Shown in pieces: positions 8,305 to 13,362 of a stretch of DNA of 64,000 nucleotides. The stretch covers positions 62,001-126,000 of the forward strand of contig NZ_FXYA01000198.1 of NCBI RefSeq assembly GCF_900184965.1, given 5' to 3'. This DNA comes from Akkermansia muciniphila (GTDB taxonomy: Bacteria; Verrucomicrobiota; Verrucomicrobiia; Verrucomicrobiales; Akkermansiaceae). The stretch's first letter is position 1, and every line of letters starts with the position of its first letter. Below the pieces are notes generated by a model that was not told the DNA's origin, searched no databases, and worked only from the letters and a program-made list of their open reading frames with translations. Both the position numbers and the translations under genes were made by a program.

Positions 8305-9750
8305 ATGGATCATTCATCATCACGCCGTCGTTTTCTTCAGACTCTGGGCCTGGCTACTGGCGCCCTGGCTGCCGGTCCCTTTGCCAACGCCCAGGAAGTC
8401 GCCCCCCTGGCTCCCAAGAAAATCACCATTCCGGACCCGAATAACATCGGCCCCATGACCACCTGGCCGCCGCGCAAGCCCGGCGCCATCTACATGGGCG
8501 GCTTCAGGGCACCCAAGCTGGACAAGGTGCGCGTAGCCTTTGTCGGCGTGGGTGAGCGCGGCTCCATGCACGTGGGCCAGATGGCCGTTATAGAAGGCGC
8601 GGAAATCGTCGGCATTTGCGACCTGTATGAAGACTGGGCCAAGCGCAACGCGGACGTCGTGGAAAAGAAGACGGGCAAGCGCCCCCCCATTTTCACGAAA
8701 GGACCGGAAGACTACAAGCGCATGATGAAGGAAGTCAAGCCGGACGCCGTCATCGTCTGCCCCAGCTGGGAATGGCACTGCCGCGTTACCTGCGACGTGA
8801 TGAAGATGGGCGCCCACGCCTTTGTGGAAGTGCCTATGGCCGTCTCCATCAAGGAACTCTGGGAAATCGTGGATACTTCCGAAGAAACCAGGAAGCACTG
8901 CATGATGATGGAAAACGTCAATTACGGACGTGAAGAACTCCTGTACCTGAACATGGTGCGCCAGGGCGTCATCGGCGATCTGTTGTACGGAGAAGCCGCC
9001 TACATCCATGAACTGCGCAACCAGATGAAGCAGGTGGAACGCGGCACCGGTTCCTGGAGAACCTACCACTACGCCAAGCGCAACGGAAACGTGTATCCCA
9101 CGCACGGCCTCGGCCCCATCGCCCAGTACATGAATCTGGCCCGCAAGGACGACTGCTTCGGCCGTCTCGTGTCCTTCTCCAGCCCGGCCCTGGGCCGTCC
9201 CGCGTACGCCAGGAAGAATTTCCCGGCGGACCACAAGTGGAACAAGCTGGACTTTGCCTGCGGCGATATGAATACCTCCATCATCAAGACCACCATGGGC
9301 CGCACCGTCCTGGTGGAATGGGATGAAACCAGCCCGCGCCCCTACTCCCGCCTGAATCTCATCCAGGGAACCCTGGGCACCCTGGCCGGCTTCCCGACCC
9401 GCGTAGCCGGCGAAAAGCTGGGCAATGGAAATTATCACGAATGGATTGAGGGCAAAGAAAAGCTGGCCCCCATTTTTGAAAAATACGAACACCCGCTCTG
9501 GAAGCGCGTCGGTCCGCTGGCCCTGAAGATGGGCGGCCACGGCGGCATGGACTTCGTGATGCTCTTCCGCATCATCGAATGCCTCCGCAACGGCGAACCG
9601 ATGGACCAGAACGTTTATGAAGGAGCCTTCTGGTCCTCCGTCTCCGAGCTTTCCGAATACTCCGTGGCCCAGGGCGGCATGCCCCAGGTGTTCCCGGACT
9701 TCACCCGCGGAGACTGGAAAACGACCGCTCCGCTGGGCATTGTCCAGTAA
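8305..9750 (+). CDS. GH109 family glycosidase (alpha-N-acetylgalactosaminidase-like), Tat-exported
   Basis: A 481-residue member of the Gfo/Idh/MocA fold. The N-terminus SSRRRFLQTLGLATGALAAG is a twin-arginine signal, expected for a protein exported with bound NAD(H). The dinucleotide site is VAFVGVGERGSMHV with ICDLYEDWA closing the Rossmann unit. The GNVYPTHGLGPIAQYM segment with its conserved His is the GH109 hallmark. GH109 enzymes hydrolyse terminal alpha-GalNAc (blood group A, mucin cores) by an NAD-dependent redox mechanism; several Gfo/Idh paralogs do other reactions, so the substrate is inferred. It is monocistronic, with terminators on both sides. Confidence 0.85.
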   Translation: MDHSSSRRRFLQTLGLATGALAAGPFANAQEVAPLAPKKITIPDPNNIGPMTTWPPRKPGAIYMGGFRAPKLDKVRVAFVGVGERGSMHVGQMAVIEGAEIVGICDLYEDWAKRNADVVEKKTGKRPPIFTKGPEDYKRMMKEVKPDAVIVCPSWEWHCRVTCDVMKMGAHAFVEVPMAVSIKELWEIVDTSEETRKHCMMMENVNYGREELLYLNMVRQGVIGDLLYGEAAYIHELRNQMKQVERGTGSWRTYHYAKRNGNVYPTHGLGPIAQYMNLARKDDCFGRLVSFSSPALGRPAYARKNFPADHKWNKLDFACGDMNTSIIKTTMGRTVLVEWDETSPRPYSRLNLIQGTLGTLAGFPTRVAGEKLGNGNYHEWIEGKEKLAPIFEKYEHPLWKRVGPLALKMGGHGGMDFVMLFRIIECLRNGEPMDQNVYEGAFWSSVSELSEYSVAQGGMPQVFPDFTRGDWKTTAPLGIVQ

Positions 9751-9833
9751 CAGCCGGTGACCTTCCCCGGCCCGGAGCTTTTCCGCCTCCACGGCGCGCT
9801 TCCAGGCCGGGGCAAATGCCCTCTTTGCAAAAA

Positions 9834-9866
9834 AACAGGCCCAGCTTGCAAGCGGCCTGTTTTTTA
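9834..9866 (+). terminator. Rho-independent terminator after GH109 gene
   Basis: Stem AACAGGCC (9834-9841) with GGCCTGTT (9854-9861) and a T run continuing to 9865. The rest of the 9751-10082 gap shows nothing else I can name. Confidence 0.8.
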
Positions 9867-10082
9867 TTGCGTCAATGACATCCAATTCCAGAAGTTGAAA
9901 AACGCTGCAAGCGCCCCACTTGTCCGGAAAGGCTCCGTATGGCGCCAAAAAGCGGAATTCCATGAAATTTTTTTCCTCTCCCGGAACGTATACAGGATTG
10001 AAAAACGTTTAACGGGGCATGTTTTCCGCCCTGTCCCTCTCCCATAGGGGAATGCCGTTTCCTTTACATCGCACACGCCTCC

Positions 10083-11225
10083 ATGCTTTCCTACTGCACC
10101 AATATTCATCCCGCCGAATCCTGGGCGGAAACCAGGGAAGCCCTTTTCACCTGCGTTCCCCGCATCAGGCAGGAACTCGCGGCAATGGACTCCCCTTTGA
10201 AGAATCTCCCGCTGGGCATCGGTCTGCGCCTGTCCGCCAGGGCGGCGGCGGAACTTCTGGAAACGCCGCACGCCGTGGAAGCCCTGAAATCATGGCTGGA
10301 TGACCAGGGCGCGCGCGTGGAAACCCTCAACGGTTTCCCTTACGGTAATTTTCACGGGCAGCGCGTAAAAGAGCGCGTTTTCCAGCCGGACTGGACTACG
10401 CCGGAACGTTTTGAATACACCTGCAACCTGTTCCGCATTCTGGCGCTCATTGGAGACGAACAGGCTGACAGGCTGACCGTCAGCACGCTCCCCGCCTCAC
10501 ACAGCTGGTTTCATGCGGATGAAGAACGCCTCTTTTCCCGGCTGGACGCCATGAGCGGATTCCTGGATATGCTGGGCAGGCAGACCGGCCGCCTGATGCA
10601 GCTGGGGCTGGAGCCGGAGCCATTCGGGCATTTTCACGATACGGAAGGAGCCATCCGTTTCTTCAACGGCCTTCGCAACTATTCCCGCCGTCCCGAACTG
10701 ATCGAACGCCACCTGGGGCTGACATACGATACCTGCCATTTCGCCATTCTCCGGGAAGAGCCGGAAGCCACTCTTTCCGCCTGGGAGGAGAACAACATCG
10801 CCCTCTGCAAGGTTCAATACTCCAACGCCCTGGAATGCCGCGTACGCGGTGAAGAAGACCTGGAACGCCTGCGCCAGTTTGACGAAGGCGTTTATTTCCA
10901 TCAGACCAGCATCCGCAACCAGAACCGCACCATGCTTTTCCCGGACCTGCCCAATGCTCTGGCCTATGGACGGGACTATGCGGAGGAAACGCGGGATTCC
11001 CAATGGCGTATCCATTACCACATTCCCCTGTACGCTTCTCCGGAACCACCCTTGAAAGGCACGGAAGAATTCATCCTGAAAACGCGCCATTTCCTCCGGG
11101 ACCGCCAAGGCCCGCAGCCGCACCTGGAGGTGGAGACCTATACCTGGAGCGTCCTGCCGGACCACATGAAGATGCTCCTGGCAGCCCAGATTGCCCGTGA
11201 ACTGCATTACATTGAAACCCTGTAA
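10083..11225 (+). CDS. eboE: EboE-like metabolite traffic protein (xylose-isomerase-type TIM barrel)
   Basis: 380 residues. The start LSYCTNIHPAESWAETREA, then GIGLRLSARAAAEL, then ETLNGFPYGNFHGQRVKE with DWTTPER, and STLPASHSWF are the conserved blocks of EboE. The His and Glu residues through the barrel (for example EPEPFGHFHDTEG and TYDTCHFA) look like a divalent-metal site of the AP-endonuclease/xylose isomerase superfamily. EboE is known from eboABCDEF clusters implicated in moving precursors such as scytonemin intermediates to the periplasm. Here none of the partners is adjacent. The next gene starts 4 bases after its stop, so the two are probably co-transcribed. Confidence 0.85.
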   Translation: MLSYCTNIHPAESWAETREALFTCVPRIRQELAAMDSPLKNLPLGIGLRLSARAAAELLETPHAVEALKSWLDDQGARVETLNGFPYGNFHGQRVKERVFQPDWTTPERFEYTCNLFRILALIGDEQADRLTVSTLPASHSWFHADEERLFSRLDAMSGFLDMLGRQTGRLMQLGLEPEPFGHFHDTEGAIRFFNGLRNYSRRPELIERHLGLTYDTCHFAILREEPEATLSAWEENNIALCKVQYSNALECRVRGEEDLERLRQFDEGVYFHQTSIRNQNRTMLFPDLPNALAYGRDYAEETRDSQWRIHYHIPLYASPEPPLKGTEEFILKTRHFLRDRQGPQPHLEVETYTWSVLPDHMKMLLAAQIARELHYIETL

Positions 11226-11229
11226 CGCC

Positions 11230-12189
11230 ATGACGCCCCGCATGCATCCCTACGCCGTCCTGTCCTCCGGATTCCTGCTGTTGTCCACCGGTCTTTTCTC
11301 CTGCACGCTGCTTTCCACGGTTTCCTCCGGGGGACCGGAAACGCCGCGGACCCTGGGCGCGCGCATGGAAAAACACACGGAAGTCCTGCAAAAAGACATC
11401 GGGGTCAGAGACGCCGGCCAGCCCAAATCCATGGAAGCCGCCGCCAAATACATCGCCGGGAACTTCTCGGACATGGGGTACGCCGTCACCATGCAGCCGG
11501 TATCCGGAGGAAACGCGGAAAAAGGAGAGGCCATTTACAACATCCTGGTCTACAAGCCCGGCCTGTATTCCAGCAACCAGAGCATCGTCGTGGGGGCCAA
11601 TTACGATTCCAGCGGACGGCGCAACAACGGCAGCGGAACAGCCCTGCTGCTGGAGACGGCGCGAGGCCTGAAGGACATCCCCACCAATCACAATATCTAT
11701 TTTGTCGCGTACGCGAATGGAGCGGAACCCACGGGGAAATCCATTCCTTCCGGCGCCTGCGTGCATGCCGGCGCCCTGAGCGGCAGCATCGGGGCAGCCA
11801 ACATCCTGGGAATGATCAATCTGGAACCCCAGAAGCCGGATGCCGGAGGGGAACGAAAACAGCCGGCCCCGGAATCCTCCCGGGAAGCCGTTCTGTTCGT
11901 GACCACCCCGCACGGCAGGAAATTCGCAGGCCAGTGCACCGCCCCCTTCGCCAAATCCTGGGATCAGGCGCCCACAACCTTTTACCGGGAACCTTCCGCC
12001 CTCACAGGCAATGACCGCCATTACGCGGTCCTGGGCATTCCCACGGTCTCCTGCCGGTGCAGGTATCCCGTCACGGATGCCCGCACGGAAGAGTATGTGC
12101 AGGCGCTGACGGACATGATCCACCAGGTAGCGGACAACGACGCGCCCGAACCGGCAAAAAACGCCGATCAGGACGGGAAAACATCCTGA
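11230..12189 (+). CDS. M28-peptidase-like lipoprotein with lost metal ligands
   Basis: 319 residues. The N-terminus (MTPRMHPY, hydrophobic run, LFSC) looks like a lipoprotein signal. The fold follows M28 zinc aminopeptidases: AAKYIAGNFSDMGYAV, then IVVGANYDSSG, NNGSGTALLLETAR, IYFVAYANG and GIPTVSC. Key ligands are altered. The usual HYD is NYD, the bridging Asp of the NDN block is Asn, the catalytic GEE is NGAE, and the NLD Asp is Glu. It is therefore probably not a working peptidase; a binding or regulatory role is possible. It starts 4 bases after eboE and should share its transcript. The convergent MFS gene ends 18 bases beyond. Confidence 0.72.
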   Translation: MTPRMHPYAVLSSGFLLLSTGLFSCTLLSTVSSGGPETPRTLGARMEKHTEVLQKDIGVRDAGQPKSMEAAAKYIAGNFSDMGYAVTMQPVSGGNAEKGEAIYNILVYKPGLYSSNQSIVVGANYDSSGRRNNGSGTALLLETARGLKDIPTNHNIYFVAYANGAEPTGKSIPSGACVHAGALSGSIGAANILGMINLEPQKPDAGGERKQPAPESSREAVLFVTTPHGRKFAGQCTAPFAKSWDQAPTTFYREPSALTGNDRHYAVLGIPTVSCRCRYPVTDARTEEYVQALTDMIHQVADNDAPEPAKNADQDGKTS

Positions 12190-12207
12190 CGTTTCCCTCC
12201 CTCCCCG

Positions 12208-13362
12208 TTACCGGGACAGCTTTCTCCTTCCGTGGCCCCCGCCCAGCACCAGCACGGGCATGAAGGAAAGAGCCACCAGCGCAATAACCATAGGCATCCA
12301 ATTGTCGGAATACCTCTGCATCAGGAACGAAGTCAGGGACGGGCCGGCCAGTGTGCCGACGGAATAACTCAACAGCAGAAGCTGGTTCATGGTCACCAGT
12401 TCATCCCGGGAGGCTTCCTCGCATCCCCAGGCCATGGCAACAGGGTACAGGGAAAATCCGGCCAGCCCCAGAGCAATCAGGGAGGGAGCCATCAGCCCTC
12501 CCTTCAGCATCAGCCCGGCACAGGCCGCCGCCACCAGCAGGGACTGGCATTTCATGACGAAAGCGCGGCCGTACCTGTCCGCCAGCCTCCCCATGGGCCA
12601 CTGCCCCAGAATGGCAGCGGCAATCAGCAGGGCCATCCAGTATCCCACGGAAGAGTGGCTCATGCCCTGGCGCTTCAAAAACAGGGGCATCAGGCAATAA
12701 ATAGTACCCAATACCACACCGGAAATCACACATCCCACAATGCCCAGAAAGACGCTGCGGCGCCTCAGCAGTGTCCGGATCTCCACATGGGAGGAAGATG
12801 AAATCTCCCCATTGCCCGATTCCAGACGCGCAAACATCAGCGGAACCATGCCCGCTACTGATAAAATGCACACTTCCGTTGCAATCAGAGACATATCGCT
12901 GGGGAACCAGCCCAGAAGCAGCTGCCCCAGCACCGTACCCAGATAATAAACCACCATGTAGGAAGCCAGAAGAATGCCGCGGGTTTGCAGCGTTCCGGCC
13001 CTCAGCAGGGCGCTCTCCACCACCACCCAGACCAGGGCGCAGCTGATCCCCGCCAGCAGCCTGAGGCCGCTCCAGGCCGGCACGCCGGGAAACACAGGCA
13101 GCAGAACGGTGGACACCGCGCACAAAAGGCATGCATATTGGTAACTTCCTTTGAATCCGGCCCTTCGGATCACGCCGCCAGCCAGCAGCGTGCCGGCCAG
13201 GTTCCCGAGAAAAAAGAAAGCCCCCACCAGCCCCGCCTCCCAGGTGGCGGCATCAACTTGCTCCATCCACAGGGGAACAACCGTATTCAACACGGCAAAC
13301 GCCACTGTCTGGAAAAAAAGCCCCGCCAGCAGCAGGGCAATAGGCCAGGTAAATGTACGCAT
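12208..13362 (-). CDS. MFS transporter
   Basis: 384 residues, almost entirely hydrophobic, with about 12 membrane segments. The loop GRLADRYGRAF between segments 8 and 9 is the second-half MFS signature, and GGVIRRAGFKG occupies the equivalent first-half loop. I start at ATG 13362 (MRTFTWPIALLLAG) because the 12 upstream in-frame residues have no transporter character. The shape resembles the YcaD/sugar-efflux subgroup, but the substrate cannot be read from the sequence. It is convergent with the M28-like gene and shares no operon. Confidence 0.85.
   Translation of the reverse strand: MRTFTWPIALLLAGLFFQTVAFAVLNTVVPLWMEQVDAATWEAGLVGAFFFLGNLAGTLLAGGVIRRAGFKGSYQYACLLCAVSTVLLPVFPGVPAWSGLRLLAGISCALVWVVVESALLRAGTLQTRGILLASYMVVYYLGTVLGQLLLGWFPSDMSLIATEVCILSVAGMVPLMFARLESGNGEISSSSHVEIRTLLRRRSVFLGIVGCVISGVVLGTIYCLMPLFLKRQGMSHSSVGYWMALLIAAAILGQWPMGRLADRYGRAFVMKCQSLLVAAACAGLMLKGGLMAPSLIALGLAGFSLYPVAMAWGCEEASRDELVTMNQLLLLSYSVGTLAGPSLTSFLMQRYSDNWMPMVIALVALSFMPVLVLGGGHGRRKLSR

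Follow-up and report, generated by a model that had tools for sequence, protein, structure and literature searches.

The EboE protein encoded in the window (the whole stretch of 64,000 nucleotides that was analysed) probably acts, as one predicted enzyme, in an ebo pathway that is complete but dispersed; the lipoprotein encoded directly behind it is best read as a clade-specific, non-catalytic derivative of peptidase family M28.

The eboE gene is located on the forward strand at 10083..11225 (ATG at 10083, stop codon TAA at 11223-11225) and its product of 380 aa is predicted to be a xylose-isomerase-like TIM barrel. The protein was confirmed as EboE by its match to NF035939, which reached 369.6 bits against a curated cut-off of 250 and aligned residues 2-377 to profile positions 1-378 of 379. 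The AlphaFold model of the protein has a pLDDT of 96.5. When it was compared with solved structures by re-alignment of Foldseek's own matches, the closest structure was 2zds (Z 22.9), and all 50 rows shown had Z scores of 20-23 and were mostly sugar isomerases/epimerases with 11-16% identity. The barrel fold is shared with ketose 3-epimerases and xylose isomerases (Z 20-22, 2.5-3.5 A over 244-273 residues); however, identity to these enzymes is only 11-16%, and a PDB search with the EboE profile gave no significant sequence match and two chance-level rows. The conserved residues E177, D216 and E349 sit at the ends of predicted strands, and we infer that they are the likely place of the EboE metal.

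In the first-pass annotation this eboE was described as solitary. We rejected that description because candidates for eboA, eboB, eboC, eboD and eboF are present on other contigs of the same genome (G000); eboE is alone only within the window, where no second ebo gene was found among ORFs of at least 90 aa. Pfam searches of the genome covered the superfamilies of those further Ebo proteins that PMC5133447 names and gave two UbiA loci (one of them MenA), two sugar-phosphate cyclase loci, three TatD loci and seven phosphodiesterase loci. We then compared the ORFs that these loci and the window contain with the genes beside eboE in relatives, notably L064-L067 from the same class; in L064 the genes stand in a row in the order A-B-E-C-D-F. 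In these relatives, A is labelled by size and place, and the labels B, D and F come from superfamily together with place.

The eboA candidate (about C7:7344-7712) exhibits 30-49% identity over 65-92 aa and has the eboB candidate (C7:7718-8530; 59-61% identity) immediately behind it. The eboF candidate (C210:42219-43661) shares 54-56% identity with its counterparts, and the eboD candidate (C2:183698-184879) shares 39-48%, far ahead of the true AroB. The match for the eboC candidate (C210:162685-163413) is weak, with 26-34% identity over 121-233 aa; its best NCBIfam model is EboC at 47.5 bits, below the cut-off of 250, and three eboE-adjacent EboC genes in relatives also fall below that cut-off (79.9-98.3 bits). 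No Ebo-specific NCBIfam model matched A, B, D or F, and EboA matched no NCBIfam family whatever. Judged by these sequence comparisons, the genome carries likely copies of all six ebo genes, spread over five places: A together with B, and C, D, E and F each by itself. They lie on different contigs or at distant places, and a clustered ebo operon was not found.

At the level of the phylum, an EboE match was present in 115 of 288 sampled genomes and exceeded the cut-off in 113. Within the genus, EboE was over the cut-off in 15 of 76 genomes, with one further chance-level row (G308), and EboF (E<=1e-20) was found in the same 15. EboB (14/76), the EboD type (14/76 at >400 bits; other rows <117 bits) and the 14 strong EboC rows all fall within these 15 genomes. 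None of the 61 eboE-less genomes contains EboB, EboF or the EboD type, and one of them has a 19.2-bit EboC row. Among the carriers, G290 (82% complete) was without B and D, and no eboC was found in G096. This co-occurrence was at first read as strong evidence. That reading was dropped when an aroB tree that covered 60 of the 76 genomes (left out were G290 and G302, neither with an aroB match, G299 with a split match, and 13 more) placed 14 eboE carriers in one clade with support 100/100. Since the carriers form one clade, the co-occurrence is weak as independent evidence, and by this tree it amounts to about one evolutionary event.

The dispersal itself is not an assembly artefact, because the genes from eboB to eboF are apart in six single-contig genomes: in G113, G024, G021, G033 and G220 the nearest pair among B, C, D, E and F is more than 119 kb apart, and in G231 the closest pair, B and F, is 18 kb apart. 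Among the best 80 eboE loci of at least 582 relatives in GTDB, 60 have one or more other ebo genes within at most 6 kb and 20 have none, as determined by tblastn with 14 Verrucomicrobiota queries for A, B, C, D and F (E<=1e-5) on contigs some of which are short. Dispersal as such is already known from Planctomycetes, where ebo genes are present yet unclustered in three species according to PMC5133447. This genus resembles them in its unclustered ebo genes and differs in that the dispersal is seen in six single-contig genomes and with conserved non-ebo neighbours. The words 'Verruco' and 'Akkermansia' are absent from the main text of PMC5133447. The word Akkermansia was likewise absent from the ebo-gene papers matched in our literature search. 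For the presumed locus tags Amuc_0017-0019, the matched literature mentions Amuc_0017 and neither Amuc_0018 nor Amuc_0019.

The scattered genes have neighbours of their own. The eboA and eboB genes are adjacent in all six loci examined. In 7/7 loci, from 7 of the 14 genomes with eboC, a TolQ/ExbB-family gene begins 53-65 nt behind eboC on the same strand, the distances being based on longest-ORF starts; the copy in G000 matches Pfam MotA_ExbB at 66.1 bits. Two small gene families follow the TolQ/ExbB-type gene, also in the deep lineages G231 and G290 (the last two were not displayed in L135 of G113). They gave no family match, and by eye we take them to resemble ExbD and TonB. The whole run in G000 spans C210:162685-165359 (L037:8186-10860), and its order is shared by L299, L302, L306, L131 and L144. 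The eboD gene is located 13-45 nt behind one or two HtrA-like genes in 7/7 loci, deep lineages included, and the G000 copies of these preceding genes encode trypsin-like and PDZ domains. This run covers C2:183698-188412 (L089:4699-9413), and similar runs occur in L298, L301, L305, L134, L130 and L142. Among 118 eboE loci, no TolQ-type gene was found, and one locus (L207) contains an HtrA-like match 5.6 kb from eboE. The lipoprotein behind eboE fits the envelope-neighbour pattern of eboC and eboD, only in a group of 12 genomes.

This lipoprotein gene (11230..12189, forward strand) encodes 319 aa with a degenerate M28-like domain, that is, a putative pseudo-peptidase. Its first 25 codons (11230..11304) encode a signal peptide-like stretch that ends in GLFSC25, which we take to be a lipobox-type motif; C25 is present in 12/12 orthologs and in 24/24 other family members. 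We aligned these 12 orthologs with the 24 more distant members. In the alignment of the family profile to solved M28 enzymes, the zinc ligands are placed at motifs of the types GAHYD, GANDNASG, NEE, LETLG and YHETSDT. That these motifs contribute the zinc ligands of M28 peptidases is established. All five motifs are retained in a paralog in the same genome (L136:3179-4270). In the protein of the window, the first ligand His is replaced by N124 (11599..11601; GAHYD to GANYD), with N in 12/12 orthologs and H in 23/24 others. The bridging Asp is replaced by N132 (11623..11625), with N in 12/12 orthologs and D in 24/24 others. The catalytic Glu and a ligand Glu are replaced by G164 and A165 (11719..11724; NEE to NGA), with GA in 12/12 orthologs and EE in 23/24 others. 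The C-terminal His motif has no counterpart, its column being gapped in 12/12 orthologs and H in 23/24 others. E199 (11824..11826) is the sole ligand position retained, and it is E in 12/12 orthologs. As read from this alignment, the eboE-linked lipoproteins have lost four of the five zinc ligands together with the general base.

The first-pass annotation had proposed an M28 lipoprotein with altered zinc ligands. The altered ligands and the lipid-anchor cysteine hold in all 12 orthologs, and the M28 fold itself is inferred: the protein alone matches Pfam M28 at 19.7 bits, just below the gathering threshold of 21.3; its family profile, in which 14 of 20 rows are paralogs, matches M28 aminopeptidases with an E-value of 2.2e-17; and a single-sequence fold model has a pLDDT of 36.5. 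The family thus aligns to peptidase family M28 (e.g. aminopeptidase 2ek8), but the eboE-linked branch differs from it by the loss of those ligands and the general base. The 12 orthologs group on a single branch when 43 family proteins are placed in a tree, and the stem of this branch measures 3.3 changes per column, as expected after the loss of an enzyme's constraints. The family profile also matched nicalin (1.1e-5), which we take to be an M28-fold pseudo-peptidase; it resembles the lipoprotein in having M28-like sequence without a working metal site, but nicalin-type pseudo-peptidases are eukaryotic membrane proteins. Another degenerate M28-like protein is encoded at L111:1399-2424 in a genome without eboE (G193). 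It has S, D, G, Q, R and R at the six sites, is the one exception among the 24 more distant members, and indicates that the metal site may have been lost more than once in the family.

A second M28-like lipoprotein gene is located 1.6-5.3 kb from eboF, not adjacent to it, in nine of the 12 group genomes (L287-L295). Its zinc ligands are intact in the seven sequences printed, and its frame is short in G220 (L288). It was not found beside eboF in G000, G024 and G113, the window's own subgroup. An association of the family with eboF, attractive at first, was set aside because the paralog is not adjacent, reflects one inherited arrangement and was not found beside eboF in that subgroup.

The coordinates of the pair and its close coupling were as first described, with a spacer of 4 bases (11226..11229) between the eboE stop codon and the lipoprotein ATG at 11230. 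The coupling exceeds what chance would give: over the 12 orthologous loci, window included, the spacing is 4 nt in six, 3 nt in three and a 4-nt ATGA overlap in three. Both genes are under purifying selection. Against 11 orthologous loci (including L038, the nearest, which has very few changes), the dN/dS of eboE in the window is 0.11-0.23, mostly 0.11-0.15, and that of the lipoprotein gene is 0.22-0.33, mostly 0.25-0.30, so that the lipoprotein evolves faster. The check proposed earlier, whether the pair is conserved in Verrucomicrobiota, came out positive within the genus, where 12 of the 15 eboE genomes carry it as a coupled unit, and negative outside the genus, where the lipoprotein is absent at 25/25 fetched eboE loci of other genera and at all of the best 80 GTDB loci (of at least 582 relatives). 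The pair is a clade-specific coupled unit and no phylum-wide module. A promoter and terminator scan found no promoter-like sites, which says little, and two terminator-like sites against 3.3 expected.

Whether the lipoprotein belongs to the Ebo pathway is a separate question. We put it at about even that it is a passenger, sharing a transcript with eboE and having an envelope role apart from Ebo; this would be compatible with our preferred reading of eboE. In line with it, the lipoprotein is present only in the 12 genomes, it evolves faster than EboE, and its family has weaker matches in many eboE-less genomes, some match being found in 44 of the 76. However, the ortholog-level copies (>400 bits; 435.9-721.3) number 12 in the 76 genomes and all 12 are directly behind eboE, the next best match being 85.2 bits; none of the 61 eboE-less genomes has such a copy, none was seen apart from eboE, and the spacing is kept at 3-4 nt or overlap.

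The reading we prefer, a complete but scattered pathway with EboE among its enzymes, and a lipoprotein that is a clade-specific M28 derivative, draws on the ebo cluster of Nostoc punctiforme. There, deletion of eboA, eboB, eboC, eboE or eboF (5/5) abolished scytonemin and the monomer accumulated, from which a role of Ebo in bringing a small metabolite to the periplasm was argued in PMC6282210. The window shares with Nostoc an EboE of the same family, and its genome has candidates for the other ebo genes; however, the Nostoc genes are together and tied to scytonemin (PMC6282210), and those of G000 are in five places. In addition, the EboC-type enzyme Ubi-297 farnesylates quinoline acids in vitro, as described in PMC9235831. 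EboE would catalyse a cytoplasmic, metal-dependent isomerase/epimerase-type step on a sugar or cyclitol. The product of the pathway would probably be a prenylated carrier, formed with EboD and EboC, and in keeping with the argument from the Nostoc mutants it would help a small metabolite reach the periplasm. More tentatively, the lipoprotein would be an exported, envelope-anchored, non-catalytic binding or docking protein that came to be coupled with eboE in the group of 12 genomes; it may receive the Ebo product, or may simply share the transcript.

We counted for this explanation the EboE score over the cut-off, the best matches in the window's own genome, the row of genes in L064, the genus profile, the dispersal in six genomes, the EboE model with its structural matches, the Nostoc deletions and Ubi-297, and for the lipoprotein the ligand loss beside an intact paralog, the long stem and the purifying selection. 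Counted against it were co-occurrence that is about one event, superfamily-based labels, the weak EboC, the gaps in G290 and G096, the eight changed EboE positions described below, the lack of anything tying the lipoprotein to an Ebo product, the scan without promoter-like sites, and the three of 15 eboE genomes without the lipoprotein (G231, G096 and G290, in whose eboE loci it is absent).

A bolder version of the same explanation, to which we give a low probability, is that in this genus the ebo operon was split and its genes were taken up into separate envelope operons: eboC beside a TolQ/ExbB-type proton channel and two small partners, eboD beside HtrA-like proteases and eboE beside the pseudo-peptidase lipoprotein. 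Acting jointly, they would provide an energised route by which a prenylated cyclitol-type molecule is made, crosses the envelope and is displayed or bound via the lipoprotein.

It is unlikely, we think, that EboE has left its partnership with other Ebo proteins and now serves, with the lipoprotein, in a new two-gene module, as was first suggested. The coupled pair, present in 12 of 15 eboE genomes, stands within the clade. The basis for an EboE that acts alone in a different role is gone, because the genome contains other ebo genes, which co-occur with eboE in the genus; moreover, three of the 15 genomes lack the lipoprotein and retain eboE along with some of the other ebo genes. The EboE sequence speaks on both sides. 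Eight of 76 near-invariant family positions are changed, the second highest number among 42 aligned sequences (median 1), of which the window's EboE is the sole member of its genus, but the other 68 are kept. Given these changes, the specificity of EboE may be altered, its substrate possibly being unlike that of clustered EboE.

A partnership of EboE with the GH109-type Gfo/Idh/MocA gene directly upstream (8305-9750; present in 12/12 group loci) in 3-keto-sugar metabolism, like that of other TIM-barrel isomerases, would agree with the sugar epimerases and the keto-glucal hydratase 8ro4 (Z 21.7) among its structural neighbours, but was rejected as very improbable on account of the 332-base gap in the window (9751-10082), a GH95 gene, divergent from eboE, between the two in 9/12 loci, and, in the eboE loci fetched for the deep lineages G231, G096 and G290, the lack of any GH109 match at E<=1e-20. 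No GH95 match was obtained for the window, G024 or G113 locus. On the other side of the pair, an MFS transporter gene (12211-13362, reverse strand; NCBIfam PRK03633, 535.6 bits, cut-off 361) is convergent with the lipoprotein gene, and a terminator-like stem at 12167-12190 on the reverse strand is no more than chance expectation.

The ebo candidates in the same genome correct the idea of an orphan EboE. Ebo genes are spread over many phyla, and a complete unlinked set in a gut-type genus would allow gene-by-gene deletion with few polar effects. The conserved neighbours, namely the proton-channel run, the proteases and the lipoprotein, direct attention to the envelope, and if the ebo operon was indeed broken up into an energised envelope route, this would mean an envelope role for Ebo outside phototrophs.
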